In this document: piece by piece, positions 3,415-32,899 of the stretch
How positions within the stretch are numbered: the first letter of the stretch is position 1
Layout of the letters: the number at the start of each line of letters is the position of its first letter
Source of the DNA: Saccharopolyspora rosea
Lineage (GTDB): Bacteria; Actinomycetota; Actinomycetes; Mycobacteriales; Pseudonocardiaceae
Direction: 5' to 3'
Assembly (NCBI RefSeq): GCF_025643595.1
Contig: NZ_CP102826.1
Span: 1,736,001-1,800,000 of the forward strand
Length of the DNA stretch: 64,000 nt
Program-made: the position numbers and the translations under genes
Notes under the pieces: generated by a model
The model's database searches: none
What the model was told of the DNA's origin: nothing
Seen by the model: only the letters and a program-made list of their open reading frames with translations

Positions 3415-4947
<1,533 letters not shown>

Positions 4948-5394
4948 GGATCGTATTCCCCGTCTGGTTGATCGGAGCTTGCGTGTTTTCTGCGCCCGGG
5001 CGGCGCGGTTTATCGCGACGGTTTCATTCTTCGTCGCGGCGGCCCGTGATGCCTGCGAATCGGATCTTCGCGCGGATGCCACCAGCACGCTGTGCTGCTT
5101 TGCTCACCTCCTGGCGATCCATTCGGTGGTGGCGCCCGTTCGTTTGTGTCGCGCATTCGGCAATGGGTGTGGCGCAGTGCCGCGAAAGACCCTAACACCG
5201 TTGCTGTACATCTGTACATCACCGGGGTCGGAGAACTTCCGGATTCTGCCGAATTTCATGCTTTGAACAGGCAAAACGCCTGGCGGGTGACCTGGGCCGC
5301 ATCGCGCTCCGGCGCGGGCATGGCACGCTGTGGGACGAGCGTGCCGATGTCCGTGATGCGTGTGTTGCGAAGCACAGGGAGGAACACCGAGCGA
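4948..5394. promoter_or_regulatory. Divergent betB/TetR intergenic region
   Basis: This 447-bp gap between the leftward bet-like operon and the rightward TetR gene has no convincing coding sequence in either strand. It should contain both promoters. It is less GC-rich than the genes around it. The clearest motif is a tandem TGTACATC at 5205-5220. Confidence 0.6.
5205..5220. promoter_or_regulatory. Candidate TetR operator, tandem TGTACATC
   Basis: Two exact copies of TGTACATC lie head to tail, each containing the palindrome TGTACA. Together they read as a near-palindrome TGTACA-TC-TGTACA. The site lies about 175 bp upstream of the TetR start and 258 bp upstream of betB. Size and placement suit a TetR-family dimer site. 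Assignment to the neighbouring regulator is inferred. Confidence 0.5.
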
Positions 5395-5985
5395 ATGTCG
5401 ATCACCGAGCCGGCCCCGACCTCCCCGCGCGCCCGACGCAAGGACCCCGACCGGCGGGAGCGCATCGCGCGCGCCGCGATCACGGTGGTCGCCGAGCGCG
5501 GTGTCGAGAAGCTGACGCACCGCGCCGTGGCCGCCGCGGCGGAAGTGCCGCTCGGCTCGACCACCTACTACTTCGCCACCCTGGACGACCTGCTGGCCAG
5601 CGCTCTGCGGCAGGCCGCCGCGGACGACGTCGCCCAGCTCCGCGAGTGGGCCGGGTCGCTGGAGGAGCACCGCGACCTGGCCGCCGCGCTGACCGAACTG
5701 GTGCTGCACTACCTCGGACCGGAGCGCTCGCGCACCGCCGTCGAGCACGAGCTCTACATCGCCGCGCTGCACCGCCCCGCGCTGCGCCACGTCAGCCAGG
5801 AATGGGACACCGCGCTGGCCGAGCTGTTCACCGCGCACACCGATCCGGTCACCGGGCGCGCGCTGTCGGCGGTCTTCTGCGGACTGCTGCTGCAGGGCGT
5901 GGTCCGGGAATCGGTTCCCGCGCCCGAGGAGATCGAGATGATCTTCCGGCGGATTCTCCACGGCCGCGACGTTTCCTCGCGGTGA
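5395..5985 (+). CDS. TetR-family regulator, BetI-like
   Basis: A 196-residue TetR-family repressor. The ATG at 5395 is chosen because AGGGAGG lies 11 bases upstream; the long in-frame extension back to 5092 runs through the promoter region. The helix-turn-helix spans roughly residues 20-65, with the TetR-typical LGSTTYYFATLDDLL recognition helix area. The C-terminal ligand domain is all-helical. It is divergent from the choline/betaine-type operon and probably represses it, as BetI does in other bacteria. The ligand is not visible from sequence. Confidence 0.8.
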   Translation: MSITEPAPTSPRARRKDPDRRERIARAAITVVAERGVEKLTHRAVAAAAEVPLGSTTYYFATLDDLLASALRQAAADDVAQLREWAGSLEEHRDLAAALTELVLHYLGPERSRTAVEHELYIAALHRPALRHVSQEWDTALAELFTAHTDPVTGRALSAVFCGLLLQGVVRESVPAPEEIEMIFRRILHGRDVSSR

Positions 5986-6234
5986 CCGAGGTCTCTGCGA
6001 GGTCAACGGTGGATGTCCTGACGATTGCGACGGTTCGGGGCAGTTGATCCAGCCGCGCGCCGCAGTGGAGAATGTCGGCGTAGCGATGGCGTTACCGAGC
6101 GTCCGTCCGGGGTCGCCGGTTCAGTCCGGCGGAGCACATCGCGGGGACGCTTTTCAGGTGTACAACGGACACTGCCGCGTCGGGGGCGTGGCTCGCTCCA
6201 GCACCGTGGACCAACTGGCTAGTGGGGTGAGACC

Positions 6235-7176
6235 GTGGGGCACAACGAGGACCGGGAACTCGTGCCGCTGAAGTCGGATTTCGACGTCGTGTGGTACGGA
6301 TTCCGGCGATCGCAGGTGAAGTTCTACATCCAGCAGACCGAGGCCGAGGTCCGGATGCTCACCGAGGACCGCGACTCCGCGCTGAGCCAGGTGGCCGATC
6401 TGTCCGCCCAGCTGGACGAGGCCCGCGCCGAGATCGAGTCGTTGCGCAAGCAGCTCGACGAGCAGGCGCGGCAGCCCATCGACGAGTCCGCGCTGTCCGA
6501 CCGGCTGCGCCGGATGGTGCGGCTGGCCAAGGACGAGGCCGCCGAGGTCGTGTCGTCCGCGCAGGCCGCGGCCGAGCACGAGTGGGCGCGCTCCGAGCAG
6601 TCCGCGGCGGAACTGCGCGCCCGCTACGAGAAGCTCGTCTCCGAGGCCGACGAGTGGCGCCGCCAGTCCGAGCAGCAGCGCAACGAGATGCTGGCCCGCA
6701 CGCGCGACGAGGTGCAGCGGATGGCGCGCGAGGCCGAGCAGCACCGCCGCAAGCTGGACACCGAGGCCGAACAGCGGCGCACCCAGGTCGAGAAGGACTT
6801 CGAGATCTCCATGGCGGCCCGCCGCGAGGAGGAGATGCGCGTGCTCGCCGAGCGCGAGCAGACCAGCCGGGCCGAGGCGCAGCGCCGGGTGCGCGAGGCG
6901 ACCGCGGAGGCCGAGCGCCGCATCCGCCGCGCCGACGAGTACGCGCGGACGATGTTGCAGATGCGCCAGGACGTGGCCGAACGGGTCCGCGCCGCCCAGC
7001 AGGTGCTGGCCCAGGCCGAACCGTTCCTGGCGGCCACCGAGCGGGACGCCCCGGACGTGCTGTCCGACGCCTACGTCGACCGCGTCGTCCACAGTGGACG
7101 AGTGCCGGTGGAGGAGATCGAGGTTCCCGAGCAGCGCGCGGAGGAGCCCGAACCCGACGCCGCGGTCCGCGGTTGA
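6235..7176 (+). CDS. DivIVA-like coiled-coil protein
   Basis: A 313-residue cytoplasmic protein from a GTG start. The N-terminal block (VPLKSDFDVVWYGFRRSQV and following, about residues 8-35) is a globular DivIVA-type head. From about residue 40 to 270 it is nearly continuous heptad-rich coiled coil, very rich in Glu, Arg, Ala and Gln. The tail is acidic. Such proteins in actinomycetes act in polar growth or cytoskeleton-like scaffolds. Its precise role here is not deducible, and it appears monocistronic. Confidence 0.75.
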   Translation: MGHNEDRELVPLKSDFDVVWYGFRRSQVKFYIQQTEAEVRMLTEDRDSALSQVADLSAQLDEARAEIESLRKQLDEQARQPIDESALSDRLRRMVRLAKDEAAEVVSSAQAAAEHEWARSEQSAAELRARYEKLVSEADEWRRQSEQQRNEMLARTRDEVQRMAREAEQHRRKLDTEAEQRRTQVEKDFEISMAARREEEMRVLAEREQTSRAEAQRRVREATAEAERRIRRADEYARTMLQMRQDVAERVRAAQQVLAQAEPFLAATERDAPDVLSDAYVDRVVHSGRVPVEEIEVPEQRAEEPEPDAAVRG

Positions 7177-7363
7177 CCCGCTGCCGCCGCGCGCGGCGGT
7201 GCCGTCGCGCGGGCGGAGCAAGCGGTCCACCGACGGGTTCTGCACGCGGCGAGAACACGACACACCAGCGCGTCCCGGCGGCCGTTCCGGTGCCGCCGGA
7301 CCAGACTGGACCCGATGCTGAGCACGCGGACGCCGATGTCCGCGCTGAGCCCGGGGAGGCGCG

Positions 7364-8731
7364 ATGAGGTGGCGTGGTCTGGTCGCGGTGCTGCTGGCCT
7401 GCGGCCTGCTGCTGGTGGGCACGCCGGTCGGGGCGGCACCCGTCGACGACGTGCGGGAACGGCTCGACGCCGTGCCGGGTCTGACAGTGGTGGGCGAACG
7501 CCCGACCGAACCGGGGTTCCGGCTGTTCGACCTGACCTACACCCAGCCCGCCGACCACCGGAACCCGGCGGCCGGCACGTTCCAGCAGCGGCTGACGCTG
7601 CTGCACCGCGGCTTCGACCGGCCGACCGTGCTGTACACCAGCGGCTACAACCTGCCGCAGAAGACGACCCGCACCGAGCCGACGCGGCTGGTCGACGGCA
7701 ACCAAGTCAGCCTGGAGCACCGCTTCTTCGCGCCCTCGCGGCCCGACCCGGCCGACTGGCGCGACCTGGACATCTGGCAGGCCGCGACCGACGAGCACCG
7801 GGTCGTCGACGCGCTGCGCCGGGTCTACGCGCGCAACTGGATCACCACCGGGGCCAGCAAGGGCGGCATGACGGCCGTCTACCACCGCCGCTTCTACCCG
7901 CACGACGTGGACGGCACGGTCGCCTACGTCGCACCCGATGACGTCGACAACGACGCCGACCGCGGCTACGACGACTTCCTCGCCCACGTCGGCACCGATC
8001 CGGCCTGCCGCGCCGCGCTGACCGAGGCGCAGCGGGAGGCGCTGCGCCGCCGCGGGGAGCTGCGCGCGAAGTTCGACGACTACGCGCGCGCCCACCACCT
8101 GACCTTCGACCACGTCATCGGCGACAGCGACCGCGGTCTGGAAATGGTCGTGCAGGACGCGCTGTTCTCGTTCTGGCAGTACCGCGGCCAGGCGGACTGC
8201 TCGCGAATTCCGGCGGATACGGCGAGCACCGACGAATTCTTCCGCTTCCTGGACGAGACCGTCGGATTCGAGATGTACACGGACCAGGGCATCGACCCGT
8301 ACGTGCCCTACTACTACCAGGCGGGCACCCAGCTCGGCTGGCCGCACGTGTCCGACGCGCTGCTGGCGGACCTGCTGCACCACCGCGACCTGGGTGATCC
8401 GCGCAACCTCGTGCCGCGCGACATCCCGATGCGCTTCCGGCCGGGCGCCATGCGCCCGGTCGACGAGTGGGTGCGCACCCGGGGTTCGCAGCTGCTGTTC
8501 GTCTACGGGGCGAACGACCCGTGGAGCGCCGAACCGTTCGAACCCGGCGGTCCGGACTCGTACCGCTACTTCGTCCCCGGCGGCAACCACGGCTCGCAGA
8601 TCGCCGGTCTCCCGCCCCGGGACCGCGACGCCGCCACCGCGGCCCTGCGCCGCTGGGCCGACGCGGGCAACCCGGCCGCCCGCACCACGTCGCTCGACAC
8701 CGCCACCGTCCTGGGGCGCCACCCGCTGTAG
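7364..8731 (+). CDS. Secreted S37-family tripeptidyl aminopeptidase-like protease
   Basis: A 455-residue secreted serine peptidase resembling the Streptomyces PS-10/S37 aminopeptidases. A signal peptide covers about residues 1-25, ending near PVGAAP. The nucleophile is Ser165 in TTGASKGGMT; Asp in YGANDPW and His in GGNHGSQ near the C-terminus complete an alpha/beta-hydrolase triad. The ATG at 7364 is preceded by GGGGAGG. The role is release of peptides from extracellular protein. No operon partner is evident. Confidence 0.85.
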   Translation: MRWRGLVAVLLACGLLLVGTPVGAAPVDDVRERLDAVPGLTVVGERPTEPGFRLFDLTYTQPADHRNPAAGTFQQRLTLLHRGFDRPTVLYTSGYNLPQKTTRTEPTRLVDGNQVSLEHRFFAPSRPDPADWRDLDIWQAATDEHRVVDALRRVYARNWITTGASKGGMTAVYHRRFYPHDVDGTVAYVAPDDVDNDADRGYDDFLAHVGTDPACRAALTEAQREALRRRGELRAKFDDYARAHHLTFDHVIGDSDRGLEMVVQDALFSFWQYRGQADCSRIPADTASTDEFFRFLDETVGFEMYTDQGIDPYVPYYYQAGTQLGWPHVSDALLADLLHHRDLGDPRNLVPRDIPMRFRPGAMRPVDEWVRTRGSQLLFVYGANDPWSAEPFEPGGPDSYRYFVPGGNHGSQIAGLPPRDRDAATAALRRWADAGNPAARTTSLDTATVLGRHPL

Positions 8732-14870: not shown

Positions 14871-15248
14871 TCAGGTCGTGCGCGACGGACTCACGTCCTG
14901 CGCGATGCGTTCGAAGATGTCGCAGTCGGTCTCCCGCTGCCATTCGGGCATGTCCGCCCAGTCAGCGACGTAGCCGGGCTTGGGGTCGGCGAAGTGCTTG
15001 TAGATCTGCCCGATCCAGCACAGCGCGACGAACCGGCCCTGCTGCTCGCGGGTCAGTTTGGACGCGGCGCCATCGGTGGCCTGGATGAAGTCCTGGACCT
15101 GTTGGTAGACAGCTGCCGCGCTGGCACGTTCCCAATCGGGGGTCTCGTCCCACGGAGTGATGTAGCCCGGCTTCGGCTCGCCGGGGTAGTACTTGTTCAC
15201 CCCAGCGATCCATGCCTCGCGGAAGATGCGCCCCTTCTCGTCCGACAC
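14871..15248 (-). CDS. Small protein with internal duplication, unknown function
   Basis: About 125 residues, probably from the GTG at 15248, which has GGAGAGG five bases upstream. A GTG at 15263 overlapping the upstream stop is an alternative. I do not recognise the family. The protein contains two similar halves: EPKPGYITPWDETPDWERA near residues 25-43 and DPKPGYVADWADMPEWQRE near 90-108, each followed by a helix. No signal peptide or membrane segment. It directly follows the XRE/TPR regulator in the same direction, so it is probably co-transcribed with it. Confidence 0.7.
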   Translation of the reverse strand: MSDEKGRIFREAWIAGVNKYYPGEPKPGYITPWDETPDWERASAAAVYQQVQDFIQATDGAASKLTREQQGRFVALCWIGQIYKHFADPKPGYVADWADMPEWQRETDCDIFERIAQDVSPSRTT

Positions 15249-15259
15249 TGAACCTCTCC

Positions 15260-16641
15260 TCACTGCTTCGGGCTGGTTGCGGATACGACGTCGTTGATCT
15301 GCGAATCCAGGTAGCGTACGTGCCGGTCGTTCAGGTACGGCACGAGTTCGTTGCGCAGGTCGCCGAGTTTGCGTCCGAGGTACCCGGCCGACGAAGTCTG
15401 TCGAGCAGCATCGAGGGCGGCGGCGCCGTGCATGAGCAGTTGCCTCACGTCTGCGCGCTGCGCGCTGACGGACGCGAGGTCAGCGAGCACGGCGCCTCTA
15501 CGGCGGGCCGATGGGGCTTGGACCAGTGCTTCGTTGAGCACGGGCTCGGCCAGCTGGGGACGCCGAAGCGTCACGTAACAGGAGCCCCGTTCCTCGGCCA
15601 GGCGCGAGTCTTCGAACCGGAGCCATCCGGTGCGGGCACCTTCGCGTCGAGGTGCACGACCTGCTCGGCCTTGTCCAAGGCCCGTTGGCAGGCGGACAGG
15701 TCTCCGAGCCCGGCGTACGTCTGCGCCTGGACGGCCGCGACCCAAAACCGAGTTGTGCGGTCTGGACTGCCCCGGACAGCGAGGTGCGCCGCCCGGTCCA
15801 GCATCGGCGAGGCGTGGTGGTACTGGCGTTCGTAGATGCTCAGAAAGGCCGTCCGGATCATGGCGCATGCCCACATGTCGAACTCACGCGCTTCCTTGCT
15901 GGCATGAGCGGCTTCGGAGTAGCAGTGCGCGGCGTCGGCGTAGTTGTCGCTGTCGAAGAAGATCTCGCCGCAGAGTTGGAAGAGGTCACTCGCGAGGGTG
16001 CACAGCTTGCGCCGCACATCCCCGCTCTGCGGTTCGTCCAGGCTGTTGGTCAGGGCTGCAAGATGCTGGCGTGCGGCCGGGAGGACTTGGCGTTTCGACC
16101 GGATCTGTGCGAACTGCTGCCACAGGCCAGCGTTCATCCGCTCGAAGTTGTCCACCGTTGCAGCGTCGAGGTAGCGGGGGTGCTCGACGCCGTGCCGGAC
16201 GCGATCGACGTCGATTGCGGGGATCGCGAGCAGACTTCCTGTGACCGTCATCAAGCGGAGTAGTTCACGGCGATTCACGTCGTCACGTTGCCAATCGTCG
16301 TCGTGCGGCGTGCCGGGGGACCGCGGGGGTTCGGTTGCTGGTGCGCTCCTTGCTACCTGTGCGCCTTGCAGTTCGGCAATCTTCAGTTGGTTCTGTCGCT
16401 CGCGGACCCGGTCGAAGTGAGCAAGCAGGTCACCATTCGCGCCGAGTGCGTCGTCGGCGGTGCTCCAGAAGTCGCGACCCGGAAACTGGCGGCCGGCCTC
16501 GATGTGGGAGATCGACGTTCGTGAGTAGTTCGTGATACGCCCGAGCTGGGTTTGGTCGAGCGGTGAAGCCTTCCGGTATCCAGCGAGGGAGGACCCGAGC
16601 GCACGGCGAAGTTGCGCGACTGCTTCCGACGTACGGGCCAT
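15260..16641 (-). pseudogene. XRE/TPR transcriptional regulator with a frameshift
   Basis: The N-terminal part (16641 to about 15626) encodes an XRE helix-turn-helix (residues about 10-75, with LGRITNYSRTSISHIEAGR) followed by a hydrophobic stretch and TPR-like helices. After VPAPD the frame breaks. The rest of the family's C-terminus (WLRFEDSRLAEERG onward to SPKQ, stop at 15260) continues in the next frame from about 15625. One missing base near 15626-15640 would restore a protein of about 460 residues. This is either a true inactivating mutation, a recent phase-variable state or a sequencing error. Such regulators commonly control small accessory or peptide clusters. It is divergent from the RiPP genes and may control them. 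Confidence 0.75.
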
Positions 16642-16724
16642 GAAGGTCTCCAGTCATGCGCGCGGCACGTGTCCGGTCCGGCGTACAGCGTAGCTACCTG
16701 CGTGGACACGGCGGGGTGGATAGG

Positions 16725-16743
16725 TGTGGGAGTTGTTCCCACA
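16725..16743. promoter_or_regulatory. Palindromic operator candidate in the RiPP divergent promoter
   Basis: A perfect 7-bp inverted repeat, TGTGGGA-GTTGT-TCCCACA, sits 83 bp upstream of the XRE start and 92 bp upstream of the first RiPP-side gene. A further CCCCCAC lies just to its right. It is the most conspicuous dyad in the 194-bp spacer, and a natural site for the XRE regulator (inferred). Confidence 0.5.
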
Positions 16744-16835
16744 TCATCCCCCACGCCAATTCCACACGGTTACCTCCCGACTGCGTAGCGCAACGGTCCG
16801 CTGAGGCGGACCCGACCGGCAGTGAAGGGGTAACG

Positions 16836-17018
16836 ATGGGCACCTTTACGAGGGCTCTTGCCGTGATGGCCGGGCGCGTGCTGGGTCTGGCCGCGCCCAG
16901 TGGGTTAGCGGTGGCCGTTGACGAGTGGAAACGGCGCCGGCGGACCGATGTCGACGACGATCAGGAAGACACCGACGACTGGCAGGAGGCGGCGCGCCGT
17001 GCACTGTATCGGGGTTGA
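16836..17018 (+). CDS. 60-residue small protein, first gene of the RiPP operon
   Basis: ATG at 16836 with GAAGGGG six bases upstream. Residues about 5-27 are hydrophobic (ALAVMAGRVLGLAAPSGLAV) and may form one membrane segment; a basic KRRRR follows, then an acidic stretch rich in Asp and Glu. Function unknown. The next gene starts inside its last codons, so translation is coupled. It could be a membrane-associated accessory of the peptide cluster. I see no core-peptide motif in it. Confidence 0.6.
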   Translation: MGTFTRALAVMAGRVLGLAAPSGLAVAVDEWKRRRRTDVDDDQEDTDDWQEAARRALYRG

Positions 17019-17259
17019 CGCGCTGCTTTCCGAGCTGAGACGCCAGGACTGGGCCCTCTACGTCTTTGGTCCGAACGACGGGATCCGGGCGCGTTCGCCG
17101 CGAGTGATCACCATGCGCGGCGAGCTCGCCGACGAGCTGGCCAACCTGGAGACCCGAATCTTTCGGCTTCCCGCCGAAATCCGCGACGCCGAACCCGAGG
17201 AACGCGCCCGCAATCCACGCGTGCTCGCCCGCGTTCTCGCCGCCGTCCGCCGCCTGTAA
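16999..17259 (+). CDS. 86-residue hypothetical protein upstream of the maturase
   Basis: I choose the GTG at 16999, nine bases after AGGAGG at 16984-16989, overlapping the end of the 60-residue gene by 20 bases. The product is soluble and mixed alpha/beta in appearance, with ALYVFGPNDGIRARSP near residues 20-36 and an Arg/Glu-rich helical C-terminus. I do not recognise it. Position between the regulator region and the radical SAM gene suggests a cluster component, perhaps a leader-binding or partner protein; that is a guess from context only. Confidence 0.6.
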   Translation: MHCIGVDALLSELRRQDWALYVFGPNDGIRARSPRVITMRGELADELANLETRIFRLPAEIRDAEPEERARNPRVLARVLAAVRRL

Positions 17260-17377
17260 GCCCGGCTTGGTGTCGGGCCCCGAACTTCGGCACCAGGTCG
17301 CGCGGCTGGGCCGTGCGTGGCCCCCGACGCATCGCCCAGCCGCTTCCAACTCGACGAAAGTGAGGGAAGGACACGCC

Positions 17378-18511
17378 GTGCCCGAACATGTACAAGCATC
17401 CGTCGCCGCCCCCGACAGCGTGATCATGCAGCCGACGACGCTCTGCAACCTCGATTGCCGTTACTGCTACCTGGCGGACCGCAAGAATGACCGTCGCATG
17501 ACGCCCGCGGTCGCACGGGCGGTCGCCGCGTCCGTACGGCGCTGGTTGTCGAGCAGAGCCGTCGAGGTCATCTGGCACGGAGGCGAACCCCTGGCGGCTG
17601 GCCGCGACCACCTCGGGCTGCTGTTCGACCAGTTCGCCGACGTCGAGGTGTCCCACAGCATCCAGACGAATGCCGTGCTGATCGACGAGGCGTGGTCCGC
17701 GTGGTTGGCGGAACGTCACGTCCGTGTCGGCGTGAGCATCGACGGCGCCGAGTGTGACAACGAGGCGCGCGTCGACTTCGCGGGACGGCCCGCATTCCGG
17801 CGGATCGAACGCGGCATCCGACGGTTGGTTGCCGACGGGCACCCGGTGTCGGTAATCGCCGTCGTGTCCGACCCAACGCCGGAGCGCGCTCGACGCCTCT
17901 ACCAAGCGGTCGCCGAGCTGGGCGCCCGGTGGTTGGGCGTGAACATCGAAGAGTGCGAAGGCGTGAACGACCGCAGCAACGAGCACGACCTCGGACAGGT
18001 CCGAGCGTTCTGGTCGGCACTGCTGGAAGAGTGGATCGCCGACGACCGGGTAGGGTTGCGCGACATCGATCGGGTGCTCGCCTATGCCGGGCGCGTGTTC
18101 AACGGCCACGCGGCGGGCGGCCGGACACCTGTGATCGACCCGCTTCCTACGGTCGGGTGGAACGGCAATGTCACGCTGATCTCGCCTGAACTTGCGGGCT
18201 TCAGGTCGGACCGCTTCGGTGATTTCGCGTGCGGCAACGTCCTAGCGCACGACCTCGACACGCTGGTCGAGCGCGGATCACGGTGCGCATGGGTCGCCGA
18301 GTACAGGCGTGGCCTCGCTCAATGCCATTCGACATGTCCGTATTTCGATTTCTGTGGAGGTGGTCACCCGGCGAACAGATACTTCGAGCTAGGCAGGTTC
18401 GATGTCGCGGAAACCAATTACTGCCGCAATGGTAAGATTGCATTAGTCGAGGGGGTGCTCGATGCCGCAAGGCGACCTGATCGACATTTCGAGCATGGTG
18501 TGGCGGAGTGA
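17378..18511 (+). CDS. amcB: Radical SAM/SPASM peptide maturase, AmcB-like
   Basis: A 377-residue radical S-adenosylmethionine enzyme starting at GTG 17378, seven bases after GAGGGAAGG. The 4Fe-4S/SAM motif is CNLDCRYC with Cys23, Cys27 and Cys30. WHGGEPL at about 66-72 is the GGE motif. The C-terminus has SPASM-type cysteines (CHSTCPYFDFCGGGHP and a later YCRNG) for auxiliary clusters. It is followed immediately by a precursor rich in WDN/FDN, so it probably cross-links aromatic side chains to the following residues to form three-residue cyclophanes, as described for XyeB, GrrM and FxsB enzymes. The pairing resembles the AmcA/AmcB family; that name is from memory. It carries one rare TTA leucine codon at 18443-18445. 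Confidence 0.85.
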   Translation: MPEHVQASVAAPDSVIMQPTTLCNLDCRYCYLADRKNDRRMTPAVARAVAASVRRWLSSRAVEVIWHGGEPLAAGRDHLGLLFDQFADVEVSHSIQTNAVLIDEAWSAWLAERHVRVGVSIDGAECDNEARVDFAGRPAFRRIERGIRRLVADGHPVSVIAVVSDPTPERARRLYQAVAELGARWLGVNIEECEGVNDRSNEHDLGQVRAFWSALLEEWIADDRVGLRDIDRVLAYAGRVFNGHAAGGRTPVIDPLPTVGWNGNVTLISPELAGFRSDRFGDFACGNVLAHDLDTLVERGSRCAWVAEYRRGLAQCHSTCPYFDFCGGGHPANRYFELGRFDVAETNYCRNGKIALVEGVLDAARRPDRHFEHGVAE

Positions 18512-18647
18512 ATCGGTGTTGCAGTCGCTGATCAGTCGCCGACCGATTTTCCCGTCGCTCCGCGCTTGGGACAACCGCGATTCGTGGGACAACGTCGGGG
18601 GCGGTTTCGACAACCGCCCGTCGTGGGACAACTGGAACAAGCGCTAA
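18462..18647 (+). CDS. amcA: RiPP precursor with four WDN/FDN motifs, AmcA-like
   Basis: A 61-residue peptide from ATG 18462, six bases after GAGGGGG, overlapping the last 50 bases of the maturase gene in another frame. Residues 1-34 look like a leader (MPQGDLIDISSMVWRSES at the start). The core, residues 35-61, repeats aromatic-Asp-Asn: WDN at 36-38, WDN at 42-44, FDN at 49-51, WDN at 55-57, with a further Trp-Asn at 58-59, ending in Lys-Arg. Aromatic-X-Asn is the known substrate pattern of three-residue cyclophane-forming radical SAM enzymes. Up to four cyclophanes are expected. The stop overlaps that of the opposite-strand pentapeptide-repeat gene by two bases. No protease or exporter gene is adjacent. 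Confidence 0.87.
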   Translation: MPQGDLIDISSMVWRSESVLQSLISRRPIFPSLRAWDNRDSWDNVGGGFDNRPSWDNWNKR

Positions 18648-19306
18648 TCGCTCACGGTGAGACCGGCCTCGGTGGCGATGAGGATCGCCGCCGAGGCTGC
18701 TTGCTCGGCGCTGATCCGGGCGCCGCGTAGTCCCAGCAGTCCGCTGGCTCCGGCGATCTGCGACGTCGTCAAATCGCACCCCACGGCCTTGGTCGCTTCG
18801 AACTCCACGCCTTCGAGCGAGCAGTCGGAGAACACGACGCTCGAAAGATCCCCGCTGATCGTGGCCTCGCGGAAGGTGCACTCGTGGAAGACGAGCGCGC
18901 CCTTCACGCTCTCGACATGGATGCTCGCATAGTCCAGGCGGCAGCCATCGATGTAGAGGTCGTTCGCCGACACCAGCGACATCCGGAAACCCATCGCGCG
19001 GCTGCGGACGATCTCGGTCCGCCGTGCTTTGACGCCCTGCCATGAGGCGCCGGACAGCTCGACGTCCTCGAATCGAACGTCAGACAATTCCAGCGGGGAC
19101 AACCGAACACCGGATAGGTCGGCTGAACGCACCAGGGAACGCGCGAGGGTGCCCTGGCCCTTCACTTCAGCGAACTCTCCGGACTCGATGAGGAGTTCGT
19201 CGTCGTCGAATTCTCCCTTGAAGGTGAACGCCTCGTCGGTCAGCTCCTCCGGGTCAAATGCCGGACGCTGAAGGGTGTGTCCATGCCCCAGTTTGCGAAA
19301 GTCCAT
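18644..19306 (-). CDS. Pentapeptide-repeat-like protein
   Basis: A 220-residue soluble protein. Residues about 60-190 show degenerate pentapeptide repeats of the A(D/N)LXX type (ADLSGVRLSPLELSDVRFED and further), predicting a right-handed beta-helix. The N-terminus is acidic (EFDDDELLIESGEF). Functions of such proteins range from gyrase protection to scaffolding and immunity factors. It is tail-to-tail with the RiPP precursor, so a role in self-protection is conceivable but unsupported. Confidence 0.75.
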   Translation of the reverse strand: MDFRKLGHGHTLQRPAFDPEELTDEAFTFKGEFDDDELLIESGEFAEVKGQGTLARSLVRSADLSGVRLSPLELSDVRFEDVELSGASWQGVKARRTEIVRSRAMGFRMSLVSANDLYIDGCRLDYASIHVESVKGALVFHECTFREATISGDLSSVVFSDCSLEGVEFEATKAVGCDLTTSQIAGASGLLGLRGARISAEQAASAAILIATEAGLTVSD

Positions 19307-19427
19307 GTCGGGACCATACCGGAGCGGCTCGCATTCCGGGCGGTGGGGACATGCGAAAAATGCGAAGGCGAACGATCCGGTGAGACGATCGATGCGGGAT
19401 TCGCGACGAGATGGAGGGGGAGCGGCG

Positions 19428-19637
19428 ATGACGTCGAGGTCGGCCTCCGGGTGGCGGAAGTCCAGCTATTCCGGGCCCAACAGCAGCTGCGTCGAGGTCG
19501 GTCGGACGGCCGACGGCGGGGCCGCGGTGCGCGACACCAAGGACCGCGGCGGCGGGTTCTTCGTCGCCACCGCGGCCCAGTGGTCGGCTTTCCTCGCCGC
19601 CGTCCGGTGCGGCCGGTTCGGCTCAGGTCAGTTCTGA
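19428..19637 (+). CDS. DUF397 small protein
   Basis: A 69-residue protein with the diagnostic WRKSSYSGPNSSCVEV near its N-terminus (residues about 9-24) and an RDTKD turn, matching DUF397. The start is ATG 19428 with GGAGGGGGAG five bases before. DUF397 proteins in actinomycetes usually pair with XRE regulators of the Scr1 type. Here no intact XRE partner is adjacent. Its 3' end overlaps the convergent permease gene by 15 bp. Confidence 0.85.
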   Translation: MTSRSASGWRKSSYSGPNSSCVEVGRTADGGAAVRDTKDRGGGFFVATAAQWSAFLAAVRCGRFGSGQF

Positions 19638-21062
19638 CTCGGCCGCTTCGACCGCGGCGAACTCCTCCTCGGGGGCGTTGGCGACGAGGTGGTGGCGGCT
19701 GTGGAACCAGAAGTACGCCAGGGCGGCCAGGAAGATCGCGGCCGTGATGCCCGCCGCCACCTCGTCGACGAAGAACGTGGCCACGACCGCCGCCAGCGCC
19801 AGGACCAGGGCGATCGTGGTGGTCACGACGCCGCCGGGCGTGCGGTAGGGGCGGCCCAGCGCCGGTTCGCGGAAGCGGAGCACGATGTGCGAGAGGTTCA
19901 GCAGCACGTACGACACGGTGGCTCCGAAGACCGCGATGTTGATCAGCAGCGCGCCGTCGCCGGTCGCGGTGGCCAGCGCGAACCCGATGCAGCCGGGGAC
20001 GATCAGCGCGAGGTAGGGCGTCTTGCGGGTGCCGGTGACCGACAGCCAGCGGGGCAGGTACCCCGCCCGGGAGAGGGCGAACAGCTGGCGCGACGAGGCG
20101 TAGACGATGGAGAAGAAGCTCGCGACCAGACCGGCCAGGCCGACGTAGTTGACCACCTCGGCCAGTGCGCTGTCGCCGCCCGCTGCGGCGCGGACCGCCG
20201 CGGGCAGCGGGTTGTCGGCACCCGCGATCGCCGACGAGCCCGCCCCGCCCGGGGCGAGCAGCAGGATCGTCGCGGCGAACACCAGCAGCACGCTGATCGC
20301 CGCGATGATGCCGCGCGGCATGTCCCGGCGCGGGTCGCGCGCCTCCTCGGCGGCCAGCGGAACTCCTTCCACCGCCAGGAAGAACCAGATGCCGTACACC
20401 AGCGAGGCCAGCACCCCGGCGTAGCCGTGCGGCAGGAAGTGGCTCGCGCCCAGTCCGGTGCCGGGCGCGATGTCGAACAGCTTGGCCACCGAGAACTCCG
20501 GGATCATGCCGACGGCGAAGGCGACCAGCGCGACCACCGCGACCGCGGTGATGGCGAACATCAGCCGCAGCGCCTCGCCGACCCCGTAGATGTGGATGCC
20601 GATGAAGACGACGAAGCACGCCAGGTAGACCGGCCAGCCGTTGGTCAACCCGAACAACCCGAGCGATTCGACGTAACCGCCGATGAACACCGCGATGGCC
20701 GCCGGGGCGATCGAGTACTCGATGAGGATCGCGGTGCCGGTGGCGAATCCGCCGAGCGGGCCGAGAGCGCGCCGGGCGAAACCGTACCCCGCCCCGGCCA
20801 CCGGCAGCGCCGAAGCCATTTCGGCGAGGCCGAAGACCATGCAGGTGTACATCGCCGCCATCAGGGCGGTGGCCAGCAGCAGGCCACCCCAGCCGCCCTG
20901 GGCCAGGCCGTAGTTCCACCCGGCGAAGTCGCCCGAGATCACGTAGGACACGCCGAGCCCGGCGAGCAGCACCCAGCCCGCCGCGCCTCGTTTGAGCTGC
21001 CGGTTCCGCAGGTAGTCGCCGCCGGCGTGCTCGTAGCCGACCTGGCGTCGTTTTCCGGTCAC
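19623..21062 (-). CDS. APC-superfamily permease of the polyamine cluster
   Basis: About 479 residues from the GTG at 21062, preceded by GGAAGGA; an earlier in-frame start at 21152 would run into the operator region. Twelve or so membrane segments, APC fold, with LPVAGAGYGFARRALGPLGG in the first cytoplasmic loop. It is divergent from a glutamine-synthetase-like gene and the two share a 239-bp promoter spacer with repeated ACCA/TGGT dyads. The likely cargo is putrescine or another polyamine or amino acid (inferred). Confidence 0.83.
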   Translation of the reverse strand: MTGKRRQVGYEHAGGDYLRNRQLKRGAAGWVLLAGLGVSYVISGDFAGWNYGLAQGGWGGLLLATALMAAMYTCMVFGLAEMASALPVAGAGYGFARRALGPLGGFATGTAILIEYSIAPAAIAVFIGGYVESLGLFGLTNGWPVYLACFVVFIGIHIYGVGEALRLMFAITAVAVVALVAFAVGMIPEFSVAKLFDIAPGTGLGASHFLPHGYAGVLASLVYGIWFFLAVEGVPLAAEEARDPRRDMPRGIIAAISVLLVFAATILLLAPGGAGSSAIAGADNPLPAAVRAAAGGDSALAEVVNYVGLAGLVASFFSIVYASSRQLFALSRAGYLPRWLSVTGTRKTPYLALIVPGCIGFALATATGDGALLINIAVFGATVSYVLLNLSHIVLRFREPALGRPYRTPGGVVTTTIALVLALAAVVATFFVDEVAAGITAAIFLAALAYFWFHSRHHLVANAPEEEFAAVEAAESELT

Positions 21063-21083
21063 GAGAGGGTCCTTCCGAGCGGG

Positions 21084-21114
21084 TACCACATTGGTATGGC
21101 CGTGGACCATTGGT
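21084..21114. promoter_or_regulatory. Two ACCA/TGGT dyads, candidate GntR operators
   Basis: TACCA-CAT-TGGTA at 21084-21096 is a perfect palindrome with a 3-base centre, and ACCA-T-TGGT at 21106-21114 is a second dyad. They lie just upstream of the permease start at 21062. A related site is at 21260. The FadR-type regulator at the end of the cluster is the obvious candidate ligand-responsive protein. Confidence 0.55.
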
Positions 21115-21257
21115 TGGTCGAGCAGAGTGCTGCGCTCGGCGGGGGATGTCAATACCCGTTCCGCTGAAGTTGATGTTGCGCCCGGATTTCCGGCGGAGCG
21201 CGCTGTTGACAGCGGTCGGGGCTGCTGCTTCCATGAGTGCCCTCAAAGGTCTGTTCC

Positions 21258-21270
21258 CATACCAATGGTG
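21258..21270. promoter_or_regulatory. Third ACCA/TGGT dyad, near the ligase start
   Basis: ACCA-A-TGGT at 21261-21269 inside CATACCAATGGTG. The 11-mer CCATACCAATG here is repeated in inverse orientation at 21089-21099, so the two ends of the divergent spacer carry matching sites. It lies about 32 bp upstream of the ligase GTG and could block its promoter. Confidence 0.55.
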
Positions 21271-21301
21271 ACCGGCGCGCGCCGGTCGGAGGGAGTCACC
21301 G

Positions 21302-22663
21302 GTGCTGAGCAGCGAACCGCCGTTGACCGTGGACCGCCTGCGCGAGAAGGTCGAGACCGGCGAGGTCGACACCGTCGTGGTCGCGTTGACCGACATGCAG
21401 GGCCGGTTGCAGGGCAAGCGCTGCTCCGGGCGCTACTTCCTGGACCAGGTCCTCGCCCACGGCACCGAGGCGTGCAACTACCTGCTCGCGGTGGACGTCG
21501 ACATGGCCACTGTGGACGGATACGCGATGACGTCCTGGGAGACCGGCTACGGCGACTTCGTGCTGCGCCCGGATCTCGGGACGCTGCGCCTGGTCCCGTG
21601 GCAGGAGGCCACCGCGCTGGTGCTGTGCGACGTGCTGTGGCACTCGGGCGAACCCGTCGCCCCGTCGCCGCGCCAGGTGCTGCGCAAGCAGCTGGACCGC
21701 CTCGCCGAACTCGGCCTGCGCGCGTTCGTCGGAACCGAGTTGGAGTTCCTGGTCTTCCGGGACAGCTACGAGCAGGCGTGGGACAAGCGCTACCACGGGT
21801 TGACCCCGGCCAATCAGTACAATGTGGACTACTCCATCGCCGGGACCGGCAGGATAGAACGGCTGCTGCGCCGCATCCGCAACGACATGACCGGGGCCGG
21901 GCTCTACGTCGAGTCCGCCAAGGGGGAGTGCAACCTCGGCCAGCACGAGATCGCCATCCGCTACGACGAGGCGTTGGCCAGTTGCGACAACCACGCGCTC
22001 TACAAGAACGGCGCCAAGGAGATCGCCGCGCAGGAGGGCATGAGCCTCAGCTTCATGGCCAAGTACGACCAGCGGGAGGGCAACTCCTGCCACATCCACG
22101 TCAGCCTGCGCGACGCCGACGGCTCCGCGATGCCCGGTGCCGGCCGGTACGGGTTCTCGCCGCTCATGGAGCACTTCATCGCCGGGCAGCTCGCGTGCCT
22201 GCCGGAGTTCACCTACTTCCTGGCGCCGAACATCAACTCCTACAAGCGTTTCGCGCCCGGCAGCTTCGCCCCGACCCAGGTCGCGTGGGGGCGCGACAAC
22301 CGCACCTGCGCGCTGCGCGTGGTCGGGCACGGCGAGGGCCTGCGCGTGGAGAACCGCGTCCCCGGCGGGGACGTGAACCCCTACCTCGCGGTCGCCGCGT
22401 TGCTGGCGGCCGGACTCCACGGGATCACCGAGGAATTACCGCTCGAACCGATGCTGGAAGGCAACGCCTACACGGCGGACAAGGACGGCGTGCCGACGAC
22501 GTTGCGGCAGGCCGCCGGGCTGCTGGCGGACAGCAAGATCGCGGCCGAGGCGTTCGGCCGCGACGTCGTGGACCACTACGTCAACGCCGCGCGCGTCGAA
22601 CTGGACGCGTTCGACTCGGCCGTCACCGACTGGGAGCGGATCCGTGGTTTCGAACGGCTGTGA
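21302..22663 (+). CDS. Glutamine-synthetase-like gamma-glutamylpolyamine synthetase
   Basis: A 453-residue member of the glutamine synthetase superfamily, PuuA/GlnA3-like: it would ATP-dependently attach glutamate to an amine such as putrescine. Visible family blocks are GTELEFLVF, ESAKGECNLGQHEI, HIHVSL, the ATP site KRFAPGSFAPTQVAWGRDNR and the closing ENRVPGGDVNPYLA. The GTG at 21302 follows CGGAGGGAG. The PuuD-type hydrolase gene starts inside its 3' end. A rare TTA leucine codon lies at 22436-22438. True GlnA is made unlikely by this context. Confidence 0.82.
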   Translation: MLSSEPPLTVDRLREKVETGEVDTVVVALTDMQGRLQGKRCSGRYFLDQVLAHGTEACNYLLAVDVDMATVDGYAMTSWETGYGDFVLRPDLGTLRLVPWQEATALVLCDVLWHSGEPVAPSPRQVLRKQLDRLAELGLRAFVGTELEFLVFRDSYEQAWDKRYHGLTPANQYNVDYSIAGTGRIERLLRRIRNDMTGAGLYVESAKGECNLGQHEIAIRYDEALASCDNHALYKNGAKEIAAQEGMSLSFMAKYDQREGNSCHIHVSLRDADGSAMPGAGRYGFSPLMEHFIAGQLACLPEFTYFLAPNINSYKRFAPGSFAPTQVAWGRDNRTCALRVVGHGEGLRVENRVPGGDVNPYLAVAALLAAGLHGITEELPLEPMLEGNAYTADKDGVPTTLRQAAGLLADSKIAAEAFGRDVVDHYVNAARVELDAFDSAVTDWERIRGFERL

Positions 22664-29931: not shown

Positions 29932-31398
29932 TCAGGACGGGCGGTTGCGGGCCAGCCAGCGGCGCCGGTGTTCGGCCGCGAGGCGCTCGGCTTCCGCCTG
30001 GGCAGCGGGGGAGACCTCGTCGTCGCACCAGGACTGGAGCACGGGCAGCAGGTGGGCCAGGAAGTCGCGGCCCGCACCGGTGAGATCGCCGTGCTCGGCG
30101 AGGGTGCGGGCGGCGTCGCGGGTGGCGGTGCGCCAGCGCGCGAACTCGGTGTCGGCGCGCCGGTCCGGCCGCTCGCGGCGCCAGAAGCCGGTGACGCCGA
30201 GGTGCGCGTAGATGCCCTGCAGCAGCCCGGCGGCCGGGCGCGGGTCCTCGCGCCACGGGGCGTAGAAGCGGACGCCGTCGTCCGGGGCGAGCAGCGGCAC
30301 CAGGTCGATCAGCGCCGCCAGCTTGGTGTGCTGCACCTCGTGCGCGAGGGTGAGGGCGGCGGACCGGGCGTCGTCGGGCAACGACATCGCCACGCACCCG
30401 AACAGGTCGTTGAAGGTGGCGCTGACCTGGCCCGTCGACGAATTCACCAGCGGAGTCAGCACCCGCAGCGCCGCCGCGACCTCCTCGGCGACCGGCCGGT
30501 GCCACCGCACCAGGTGCCGCCAACCCTCGGCGAGGCGGCGCTGCCACAGGTCGCGGCGAGCCGAACCAGTGGCGCGTGGGCGCCTCGGTGGGGGGTGGTG
30601 GTCGGGTGACGGGTTGTCGGTGGCGCGCAGGCGCTTCCGTGGGGGGTGGTGGTCGGGTGACGGGTTGTCGGTGGCGCGCAGGCGCTTCCGTGGGGGGTGG
30701 TGGTCGGGTGACGGGTTGTCGGTGGCGCGCAGGCGCTTCCGTGGGGGGTGGTGGTCGGGTGACGGGAGGGCAGGTTCCACGGCCACGTTGTCGGGCACGG
30801 GGCGGTCGCCGAGCCCGTCGACGGCGAGGTCCAGGCGCAGGCCGTCGTGCTCGGCGCGGATCCGGTCGAGGCCCCGCCAGCCGGGGCCCGAGCCCAGCTG
30901 CGCGGTCGTGCGCCCGTCGGTGAGCGTCCCGGCGACCAGGTGCACCGGTCCGCACGGGGGTGCGGGCAACGTCGCCACCCCGACCGACGGCAGCGCCACC
31001 GACTCGGCGGGCGGGAGTTCGACGGGCACGTCGACACCGCCGCGCCACGCCGCCGCGGCGGCGACGTGCGCGAGGCGTTCCGGCTCGGCCTCCTCGGTGC
31101 GCCCCGCGTCCAGCCGCAGGGCGGTCCGCAACGCCCACGCGCCGACGTGCGGATATCCGACCACGTCGGCGACGGCGCGCGGCGCGCGGCGCTCCACCTC
31201 GCCGAGCGCGCGGAAGGCGCACCGCGTCAGGCGGGCGCCCGGATGTCCGGTGGCGTCGGCGAGGTCGAGGATCGCGCGCAGCAGCAACAGGGTCTTGCTG
31301 CGGCGCGCGTCGGCCAGCAGCCGGATCGCCTCCGGCCCGCCGCCGCCCCGGGCCAGCGCCGCGAACACCTCGCCGGGGATCCGGTGCCGCGCCGTCAC
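29932..31398 (-). CDS. HExxH-motif protein of the FXS RiPP system
   Basis: A 488-residue protein starting at a GTG whose bases overlap the FxsB stop (GTGA). It carries HEVQH at residues 353-357, the zinc-metalloprotease-like HExxH motif that defines the domain often fused to, or next to, FxsB. The N-terminal half is helical. Residues about 211-277 are a low-complexity insert encoded by four 51-bp tandem repeats (unit PSPDHHPPRKRLRATDN). The insert is proline-, histidine- and arginine-rich and probably disordered. It is thought to act on the FxsA peptide together with FxsB; the exact chemistry of the domain is not certain to me. Confidence 0.8.
   Translation of the reverse strand: MTARHRIPGEVFAALARGGGGPEAIRLLADARRSKTLLLLRAILDLADATGHPGARLTRCAFRALGEVERRAPRAVADVVGYPHVGAWALRTALRLDAGRTEEAEPERLAHVAAAAAWRGGVDVPVELPPAESVALPSVGVATLPAPPCGPVHLVAGTLTDGRTTAQLGSGPGWRGLDRIRAEHDGLRLDLAVDGLGDRPVPDNVAVEPALPSPDHHPPRKRLRATDNPSPDHHPPRKRLRATDNPSPDHHPPRKRLRATDNPSPDHHPPPRRPRATGSARRDLWQRRLAEGWRHLVRWHRPVAEEVAAALRVLTPLVNSSTGQVSATFNDLFGCVAMSLPDDARSAALTLAHEVQHTKLAALIDLVPLLAPDDGVRFYAPWREDPRPAAGLLQGIYAHLGVTGFWRRERPDRRADTEFARWRTATRDAARTLAEHGDLTGAGRDFLAHLLPVLQSWCDDEVSPAAQAEAERLAAEHRRRWLARNRPS
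30568..30766 (-). repeat. 51-bp tandem repeat, four copies, inside the HExxH gene
   Basis: Units start at 30568, 30619, 30670 and 30721. Units two to four are identical over their shared length and the first differs at a few positions. The length of 51 keeps the reading frame. On the gene strand the unit contains CCCGTCACCCGACCACCACC, which is also in dispersed repeat copies C and D. Confidence 0.9.
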
Positions 31399-32534
31399 GC
31401 CGGTTCTTCCCGCAGCCGCGCCACGTCCCGGGCGACGGTGTCGCGGATGTGGCCGATCAGCCGGTACAGATCCGGGCAGTACACCGACGGGTTGGCGAAA
31501 CCGCCGCCGCGCCGGTACCGGTGCGCGTGCAGACCACCTCCGCACACCCGGTGCAGCCGGCAGGAGCGGCAGTCCGGGGCGATTTCCGGCGCCCGCAGCG
31601 CGGGCGAGCGCAGCGCGTCGTCGAAGGAGTCGGTGGCCACGTGGCAGCCGGTCGCGGCCGCGCCCTGGTAGGCCGAGGTGAGCATGTCGGACGCCTCGAT
31701 CGAACCGTCGGTCTCCACCACCGCCATCGGCGGTGCGGACAGGCCGATGCCCTCGACCGCGGACTGCCCGCCGAGCAGCACGTGGAGCACCTCGGTGAAC
31801 AGCCGCACCCGGGTTTCCCGCACGGGAGCGCGGTACCAGCGGTCGAACACCGCGATCAGCCAGTCCGCGTACGGGGTCGCGGTGGTGCCCGGGCCCCGGC
31901 CGGGCGGCGGGGACGACCAGTTCCCGTTCGGCAGCAGGAAATCCACCGCGGGCGGGTCGAACCGCAGCAGGCTCTCGTAGGTCTCGACCGGGTCGTTGCG
32001 CACGTCGACGGTGCACAGCAGCCCGCCGTACACCTCGGGGTGGCGGCGCAGCGCGGTGAGCGACTCGGCCACCGCGGCGTAGCTGCCGGTCCCGCCGCGG
32101 CGCTTGCGGCGCCGGTCGTGGGCCTGCCGCGAACCGTCCAGGCTGACGCCGACGCGGACCCCGAGTTCGCCGAACAGGCGCAGGAAACGGGAGTCCAGGC
32201 GGAGTCCGTTGGTCTGCAGCCCCACCCGCACCGCGGTGCGCGGCCCGACCGCCTCGCGGACCGCCGACACGCAGAACGCCAGCCGGTCCGGCCCGGCCAG
32301 CAGCGGTTCGCCGCCGTGCAGCACCACGTCGACACCGGCGAGACCGTGCGCGTGGGCGTGTTCGGCGATCCGGTCGGCGGCCTGCCGCGCGGTCCGCCGG
32401 GACATCACCACCGGCCGCTCCCGCCACCGCTGGTCGGCCATCGTGTAGACGTAGCAGTGGTCGCAGGCCAGGTCGCACCGGCTGTGGACCTTGAGGATGA
32501 ACTGCCGCAGGAACCGTTGCGCGGGCCGCGCCAT
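31395..32534 (-). CDS. fxsB: FxsB-family radical SAM/SPASM cyclophane maturase
   Basis: A 379-residue radical SAM enzyme from ATG 32534. The SAM cluster motif is CDLACDHC (Cys20, Cys24, Cys27), GGEPL follows near residue 68, and the C-terminal region has CRSCRLHRVCGGG and a later YCPDLY, typical of SPASM/twitch clusters. FxsB enzymes link an aromatic side chain of FxsA to a nearby residue. The peptide gene is divergent, 172 bp away, and the HExxH gene follows with overlapping start and stop. In many genomes FxsB and HExxH are one protein; here they are separate. Confidence 0.9.
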   Translation of the reverse strand: MARPAQRFLRQFILKVHSRCDLACDHCYVYTMADQRWRERPVVMSRRTARQAADRIAEHAHAHGLAGVDVVLHGGEPLLAGPDRLAFCVSAVREAVGPRTAVRVGLQTNGLRLDSRFLRLFGELGVRVGVSLDGSRQAHDRRRKRRGGTGSYAAVAESLTALRRHPEVYGGLLCTVDVRNDPVETYESLLRFDPPAVDFLLPNGNWSSPPPGRGPGTTATPYADWLIAVFDRWYRAPVRETRVRLFTEVLHVLLGGQSAVEGIGLSAPPMAVVETDGSIEASDMLTSAYQGAAATGCHVATDSFDDALRSPALRAPEIAPDCRSCRLHRVCGGGLHAHRYRRGGGFANPSVYCPDLYRLIGHIRDTVARDVARLREEPA

Positions 32535-32706
32535 GCCCGCTGATTCTAGGTGCGCGCCCGGTGCCCGCCCTACGCCGAACGGACGCAGCGGGTGCGGCGC
32601 GTCCACAGTGGTCGCGCTGCTCCGAACGGAGTGCGGTGCGCGCACTGCCCACCTGCCGCGGCCTAGATCCACTAACGTTGGTCGTGTCCTGGAGGACGAA
32701 CGGGCG

Positions 32707-32886
32707 GTGCTGGACATGGGTGACGGCGAGGCCGATCTGCGGTCGGACCTGATCGACCTGACCGAGGTCGATCTGGCCCGGCTCGCCGAGCTGCCGAGTT
32801 CGGCGCTGGCCGTGTCGCTGCGCCGGATCCTGCAGGACGACGGCACCTCACCGGACCAGTACGCCTCGTTCCAGAACACCATCTGA
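32707..32886 (+). CDS. fxsA: FxsA-like RiPP precursor ending in FQNTI
   Basis: A 59-residue peptide, probably from the GTG at 32707 (GGAGG at 32691-32695); an ATG at 32716 is the alternative but too far from a ribosome site. The leader is acidic and helical (SDLIDLTEVDLARLAELP and SALAVSLRRIL), typical of FxsA. The extreme C-terminus is YASFQNTI. The family is named for FxSxx-COOH; here the position is Phe-Gln-Asn, which matches the aromatic-X-Asn cyclophane pattern. The fxsT gene starts 13 bp downstream. Confidence 0.8.
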   Translation: MLDMGDGEADLRSDLIDLTEVDLARLAELPSSALAVSLRRILQDDGTSPDQYASFQNTI

Positions 32887-32899
32887 CCAGGGGGAGCCT

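Follow-up and report, generated by a model that had tools for sequence, protein, structure and literature searches.

A conserved pentapeptide-repeat partner of the predicted AmcA/AmcB cyclophane system in Saccharopolyspora rosea and its proposed role in self-immunity

Among the peptides cross-linked by radical SAM/SPASM maturases, the triceptides of XncB, OscB/GrrM and MscB share aromatic-X-Asn motifs and a maturase of this type with the system described here (PMC11002830). OscB and XncB are described as linking Trp or Phe with the second residue after it, Asn among others; OscB connects Trp C7 to the β-carbon of Asn or Asp, and Phe C4 is connected to the β-carbon of Asn by XncB or OscB (PMC11002830). 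A further pair, the precursor peptide AmcA and the maturase AmcB, is named by the NCBI models NF041721 and NF041718, respectively, and no paper, product or function for it was found in the titles and abstract beginnings of the open-access literature, an earlier mention in subscription papers being possible. Here, an amcA/amcB locus is analysed in a stretch of 64,000 nucleotides of Saccharopolyspora rosea (assembly GCF_025643595.1, contig NZ_CP102826.1, positions 1,736,001–1,800,000), called the window below, whose numbering is used for all coordinates. A gene for a pentapeptide-repeat protein (PRP) adjoins amcA in this and other lineages and is kept at many loci that have no intact AmcB, and we propose that it encodes a self-immunity protein.

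PRPs have been suggested to mimic DNA; AlbG, CysO and McbG accompany albicidin, cystobactamid and microcin B17, all of them gyrase inhibitors (PMC9886550). These PRPs are proposed to clear the poison from gyrase. The PRP of the speirobactin cluster was taken as self-resistance by its authors, the gyrase target having been identified via resistant mutants (PMC12406682), and PRP-guided mining has yielded topoisomerase inhibitors (PMC9231227). For MfpA and the Qnr proteins, an action on gyrase that benefits the host cell is described (PMC10886550). No open-access text among the matches listed combined "pentapeptide repeat" with "cyclophane", and the one text that brings together radical SAM, ribosomally synthesized and post-translationally modified peptides, PRP and immunity is a mining review which, in the part available, does not link them. 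The locus belongs to a named, functionally blank family whose models cover the peptide and the maturase only; the linkage and persistence of the PRP partner, the two-lobed core and the prediction of a target are the additions made here.

The amcA and amcB genes and the linked PRP gene

The maturase gene amcB (17378–18511, + strand) encodes 377 amino acids from a GTG codon, with a TTG at 17267 as a possible upstream start. Its product scores 441.7 bits against NF041718 (cut-off 425, a small margin) and 52.9 bits against the Pfam Radical_SAM domain. The sequence CNLDCRYC, read at 17444–17467 (+), follows the pattern CxxxCxxC, the [4Fe-4S] motif of radical SAM enzymes, and together with the Cys-rich C-terminal region (CHSTCPYFDFCGGG...NYC) it places the protein in the radical SAM/SPASM type; the Pfam scan returned no match of AmcB to the SPASM domain. 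Since the score against the GrrM/OscB model TIGR04261 is 216.7 bits, below the cut-off of 310, AmcB lies outside that subfamily. A search of plasmid records gave six matches at E 1e-30, all annotated as GrrM/OscB.

The precursor gene amcA (18462–18647, +) begins with ATG directly at the end of amcB, overlapping the last 50 bases of its open reading frame (ORF), as in the AmcA/AmcB family. It encodes 61 residues (MPQGDLIDISSMVWRSESVLQSLISRRPIFPSLRAWDNRDSWDNVGGGFDNRPSWDNWNKR) that match NF041721 with 60.2 bits (cut-off 40, E 1.8e-16), the only AmcA match in the whole 6.56 Mb genome. The core (18567–18647, +) comprises the last 26 residues (WDNRDSWDNVGGGFDNRPSWDNWNKR) and is built of two lobes, WDN-RDS-WDN and FDN-RPS-WDN, with the linker VGGG between them and the tail WNKR; the four motifs start at W36, W42, F49 and W55, and W58-N-K follows. 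A peptide of this length, with WDN36, WDN42, FDN49 and WDN55 and overlapping the end of a radical SAM gene, had been described in the initial annotation, which also pointed to the AmcA/AmcB family; both statements are borne out, the second by the two equivalog cut-offs that the pair passes. When the 61 residues were shuffled 200,000 times, four [WFY]DN motifs were never obtained and three were obtained twice, so the density of motifs is not explained by composition.

The two-pair arrangement of motifs fits 35 of the 36 AmcA sequences compared, with 3 to 9 residues between the pairs, the spacing of six within each pair being built into the pattern; L158 is the incomplete sequence. This set omits L046 (peptide identical to that of L044) and all 22 of the genus g4 loci described below. 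After the last motif, Trp-x-Asn or Trp-x-Lys occurs in 34 of 35 sequences, L155 being the exception. The aromatic-X-Asn motif of triceptide cores is present four times and conserved across the family, and AmcA differs from the substrates of XncB, OscB and MscB in the close packing of its four motifs and in the accompanying PRP gene. When the window is compared with three close relatives, pN/pS is 0.04 in the core (synonymous change 0.51, amino-acid change 0.02) and 0.66 in the leader; the corresponding values for six Streptomyces loci are 0.22 in the core and 0.98 in the leader. The core is under strong purifying selection, the leader much less so.

The PRP gene (18644–19306, − strand; 220 amino acids) meets amcA tail-to-tail. 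The stops of amcA (TAA, +) and of the PRP gene (TAG, −) overlap in the sequence CTAA at 18644–18647, and this overlap of four bases was found in 9 of the 23 convergent amcA/PRP loci measured. The protein matches PF00805 (32.2 bits, cut-off 20.2) and PF13576 (29.7 bits, cut-off 27), and stays below the cut-off of PF13599 (32.9 against 38). Two Pfam scans of the genome for PRPs pointed to a single place elsewhere, an undercount, as the window PRP gene itself was missed.

Linkage of the two genes was counted in several sets. AmcA matches were found in 25 of 390 genomes of the same family (Pseudonocardiaceae), and the PRP gene adjoins amcA in 24 of these, the window included. The sole miss (L160, genome G705) has an AmcA match of 25 bits and neither AmcB nor PRP; it is viewed as a chance match and is still counted. 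AmcB or its remains lie directly upstream of the WDN-type peptide in 23 of the 25 genomes, the other two being L160 and L150, where the contig ends. In a fresh order-wide search of 397 genomes, 26 AmcA matches were obtained, and genus g4, which belongs to another family, accounts for 22; all 22, two of which are below the AmcA cut-off, have a PRP match directly downstream of amcA in the same direction. The PRP gene is also beside amcA and co-directional with it in all 12 Streptomyces loci of the WDN type, which belong to the AmcB relatives described next, and beside amcA in L034. Thus, two gene orders, convergent and co-directional, retain the same amcA–PRP neighbourhood. Loci within a genus share descent and the Streptomyces loci are close relatives of one another, so these counts are not independent events. 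One of the 24 family loci with the PRP, L151, is decaying: of AmcB only the two ends are left and the PRP match extends over two frames, with AmcA still open.

Thirty-four AmcB relatives were examined, namely L032–L064 (33 of 80 relative loci) and L112. In 16 of them AmcB is directly followed by a WDN-type AmcA, and every one of these has the PRP; in the remaining 18, other precursors or none were found, and there is no PRP match at E 1e-3 (Fisher p 4.5e-10, uncorrected for shared descent). The 16 include L056, with an internally deleted AmcB, and the 18 include L038 and L064, on short or cut contigs; L139, L146 and L153 of the family set apparently correspond to L056, L032 and L033, so the two sets share three genomes. 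The WDN motif is therefore not universal in the wider AmcB clade, whose substrate motif is broader. The initial annotation would have been refuted by homologous clusters that lack a conserved WDN-rich peptide at this position, and it is not: such a peptide is present in these 16 relatives and in 23 of the 25 family AmcA genomes, though not in the other 18 relatives. Among the latter, L036, L037 and L112 (51–53% identity) pair AmcB with a precursor ending in AWNHFENIPTF(F/Y)NWNNRPR and have no PRP match. In L059 and L061 (Roseobacter and a Geminicoccaceae bacterium), the AmcB relative is preceded by a small protein, encoded upstream, with NW repeats at its end.

Persistence of the PRP gene in loci without intact AmcB

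When the 390 family genomes were searched with the PRP, 53 had a match below 1e-40. Of these, 23 also have AmcA; the other 30, together with four weaker ones, make up 34 loci selected by their PRP. No intact AmcB is found near the PRP in any of the 34, and amc remnants occur in L161, L165 and L192. Intactness was scored by crude rules based on ORF length and match length. Of 59 loci chosen via AmcA or AmcB, 45 have both genes intact, 13 have an intact PRP without an intact AmcB, and one has both broken, while the 34 PRP-selected loci comprise 28 with an intact PRP and six without. Over all 93 loci, the 45 with intact AmcB all have an intact PRP, and 41 have an intact PRP without an intact AmcB. 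The reverse, an intact AmcB without an intact PRP, was seen in none of the 93 loci scored, which holds for WDN-type loci, as the 18 other AmcB relatives do without the PRP.

Some individual scores are to be read with care. In L150, AmcB leaves the contig; what look like single frameshifts in L144 and L158 may be sequencing errors; L220, with an ORF of 391 amino acids, is probably intact; and the PRP of L151 counts as intact despite its match over two frames. Matches to a different radical SAM gene in L175 and L183 were set aside. In the PRP tree, which leaves out L151, L192, L193 and L194 because their matches span no more than 150 residues, loci labelled "amc" and "PRP only" switch at least eight times, four of these switches being forced by starred branches. 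Loss of AmcB as the direction of change is shown only where amc remnants exist. Such a pattern would be expected if an immunity gene outlived its toxin, and would not be expected of a maturation helper.

The different radical SAM gene of L175 and L183 lies at about 4100–5020, tail-to-tail with an amcAB-free PRP relative on the minus strand. It ends in a Cys-rich tail (CDPRCEPYTAGCHPEC...), and none of the NCBIfam matches listed reaches its cut-off. The same type of PRP perhaps serves a second peptide system there.

Predicted fold of the PRP and setting of the cassette

The AlphaFold2 models of the window PRP (mf1c33a7b1559; pLDDT 89.4, pTM 0.88) and of a remote Streptomyces PRP (m4dd643c32702; pLDDT 77.7, first 39 residues poor) both present a solenoid followed by a C-terminal helix, the architecture of gyrase-protecting PRPs. 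In Foldseek, the best solved structure for the window PRP was 6FLS, a clostridial PRP, followed by EfsQnr, and for the Streptomyces PRP it was EfsQnr, followed by synthetic solenoids; in both cases AlbG, QnrB1 and MfpA came close behind. TM-scores of the two models to EfsQnr, AlbG, QnrB1 and MfpA were about 0.22 to 0.66. A profile of 12 amc PRPs had EfsQnr as its best solved match (E 5.7e-20; 6FLS, 6.6e-13), and a single-sequence search with the Streptomyces amc PRP gave EfsQnr and then MfpA. The window PRP is acidic (isoelectric point 4.66, net charge −15), the median charge over 55 relatives being −11. It resembles AlbG, EfsQnr, QnrB1 and MfpA in its predicted β-solenoid, C-terminal helix, acidity and length, and differs from them in sequence, with about 13–23% identity in the Foldseek alignments and scores under the Qnr and MfpA cut-offs. 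It may work like Qnr and MfpA, though it is not filed with them.

Comparison of the amc loci also delimits the cassette. The initial annotation began the unit at 16836 and so took in two small ORFs, at 16836–17018 and 17002–17259, which were rejected as parts of the system: outside the window, the first had no match among the compared loci and the second had one of 25 residues, in L143. The conserved unit reaches rightward to 19306 instead. That annotation had the family right and overlooked the conserved PRP partner, which gives the first functional lead.

On the left, a divergent XRE/NsdA-family regulator gene (15571–16641, −; NF053720, 112 bits, cut-off 75) was rejected as a core component, being a near full-length neighbour only in L141 (71% identical) and a partial one in L053. 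Judged by eye, this gene may be split over two frames (15260–16641, −), the ORF at 15260–15874 looking like its continuation. On the right, the PRP gene is adjoined by a DUF397 gene (19422–19637, +; PF04149, 71.7 bits), probably outside the system and rejected as a partner, since it has matches in only three other compared loci, none directly beside the PRP gene. The cassette sits between an aldehyde dehydrogenase gene and genes for an amino acid permease and a glutamine synthetase-like protein. The GC content is 0.63–0.68 at 15000–19999, 0.70–0.74 before it and mostly 0.71–0.73 after it, though 0.67 at 21000–21999; with this dip, the cassette looks as if it had been inserted.

No exporter, protease or peptidase was found in a Pfam scan of six window neighbours, one of which has no Pfam match at all, in agreement with the initial annotation. 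The flanks of the relatives were compared with one another, and no dedicated exporter or leader peptidase was seen as a shared flank among the clusters compared. Besides AmcB, PRP and overlapping ORFs, no flank gene is common to many amc loci of the family among the 25 largest clusters. Streptomyces amc loci (L042–L063) share three further ORFs, for example at 5715–7220, 7229–7768 and 10096–10821 of L047, which occur in 12, 12 and 9 loci and may be simple synteny. Elsewhere in the window, at 31395–36607, there is a second cyclophane system, in which the genes for an FxsB maturase (−; 445.7 bits, cut-off 370) and for a TPR protein of the FxSxx-COOH system (718 bits, cut-off 300) are divergent.

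Proposed function, alternatives and significance

By analogy with the PRPs of known antibiotic clusters, we propose, with about even confidence, that the locus is a minimal three-gene toxin-and-immunity cassette in which AmcB forms cyclophanes, the product is a gyrase poison and the PRP provides self-immunity. What the analysis shows is the identity of the genes, the conservation of the core, the linkage to the PRP, its persistence beyond AmcB and its predicted fold; cross-links, toxicity, target and immunity are inferred. In each motif, AmcB would join a ring carbon of Trp or Phe to the β-carbon of the Asn at its third position, so that as many as four three-residue cyclophanes would make up two rigid lobes; the number of rings and the cross-link chemistry are predictions from the motifs. 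The product would probably be antibacterial, with DNA gyrase or a different type II topoisomerase as its target; a match between the two-fold peptide and the two-fold symmetry of an enzyme like gyrase is a speculation. The PRP, an acidic and probably dimeric β-solenoid mimicking DNA, would act as the immunity factor by clearing the poison from gyrase. As the loci scanned showed neither a dedicated exporter nor a leader peptidase, the peptide might be released by the general cell machinery or act inside the cell. Protection by the PRP against the AmcA product seems to us probable, and for DNA gyrase as the target of that product the case is roughly balanced.

Microcin B17 carries azole rings. 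It resembles the amc system in being a ribosomal modified peptide with a PRP gene, mcbG, in its cluster, and it differs in that its operon has export genes, whereas no exporter is linked to the amc locus and the predicted modifications are cyclophanes (PMC9886550, PMC10886550).

Several observations weigh against the toxin-and-immunity proposal. In the window, the PRP gene is on the opposite strand and is not co-transcribed with amcA, which is odd for an immunity gene, and no linked exporter or peptidase was seen among the scanned neighbours or the shared flanks. The PRP scores 22.7 bits against the Qnr model NF033086 and 16.7 bits against the MfpA model NF000349, below their cut-offs of 240 and 360, respectively. 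Its top fold match, 6FLS, is not described as gyrase-protecting in its listing, and synthetic solenoids and HetL are also among the fold matches; moreover, PRPs have many roles and the solved structures are biased to gyrase-protecting ones. Searched alone, the window PRP matched a synthetic solenoid best, with EfsQnr and MfpA near E 0.002, and so it behaved like the control, the unrelated PRP L226, whose best matches are synthetic solenoids. The argument from this single-sequence control is therefore weak, and because the window PRP alone does not prefer EfsQnr or MfpA, sequence support for a gyrase-type PRP is moderate. Finally, amc remnants were found in only three of the 34 PRP-selected loci, and the loci with the PRP only could be older stand-alone genes later joined by amcAB.

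If the modified peptide stayed inside the cell, the genes could instead form an addiction or abortive-infection cassette with the PRP as antitoxin. The missing exporter and protease among the window neighbours, the lack of a flank gene common to many amc loci in the 25 largest clusters, the tail-to-tail overlap of amcA and the PRP gene, and the lowered GC content, as in acquired DNA, are all in keeping with this; yet PADLOC gave just a weak viperin-like similarity for AmcB and a 13-bit RmrA match for the regulator, and a known defence system was rejected on these weak matches. An addiction system should also resist loss, yet many loci have lost AmcB and retained the PRP, a pattern that equally fits a toxin lost first. 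We consider an intracellular cassette unlikely. Protection against a peptide directed at some target other than a topoisomerase would explain the linkage and persistence of the PRP just as well, as these argue for protection whatever the target, and would suit the scores below the Qnr and MfpA cut-offs. Both PRP models, however, rank EfsQnr and AlbG high, and the PRPs of antibiotic clusters for which the available accounts state a target go with gyrase or topoisomerase inhibitors, the target of alkylpyrone-407 not being shown there; a different target is, in our estimation, quite unlikely.

The PRP might also be a working partner, with the modified peptide binding it and tuning its control of gyrase in a regulatory rather than toxic pair. 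The constancy of the two genes as neighbours, the convergent overlapping 3′ ends, which could pit one gene against the other, and the beneficial action of MfpA and Qnr on gyrase (PMC10886550) speak for it. On the other side, the PRP can do without the peptide, as it is intact in 28 of the 34 PRP-selected loci, none of which has an intact AmcB, and among the loci scored an intact AmcB with a WDN-type AmcA is never seen without an intact PRP; such a partnership is improbable. A neutral role for the PRP, as a neighbour that has simply been inherited together with amcAB, is already disfavoured and strikes us as scarcely credible: although the loci within a genus are related and inheritance of the cassette inflates the counts, the association spans several lineages and two gene orders, is absent from the 18 AmcB relatives without a WDN-type precursor, and involves a type of gene that is uncommon in the genome, with the reservation that the scans undercount it.

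The presence of a conserved immunity-type partner turns AmcA/AmcB into a testable prediction of a target, and a system of three genes is small enough for expression in a laboratory strain. Rather tentatively, with doubt slightly outweighing confidence, we suggest that AmcA gives rise to gyrase poisons of a new chemical class, two-lobed multi-cyclophane ribosomal peptides with dedicated PRP immunity, and that the many amcAB-free PRP genes of the family are left-over or acquired resistance genes. To our knowledge, no triceptide has previously had a gyrase target, so this, if correct, would be the first, on a peptide scaffold unlike the quinolones, albicidins and azole microcins. The amcAB-free PRP genes would then be a natural record of resistance outliving its toxin, and PRP-guided mining would reveal both producers and their resistant neighbours.

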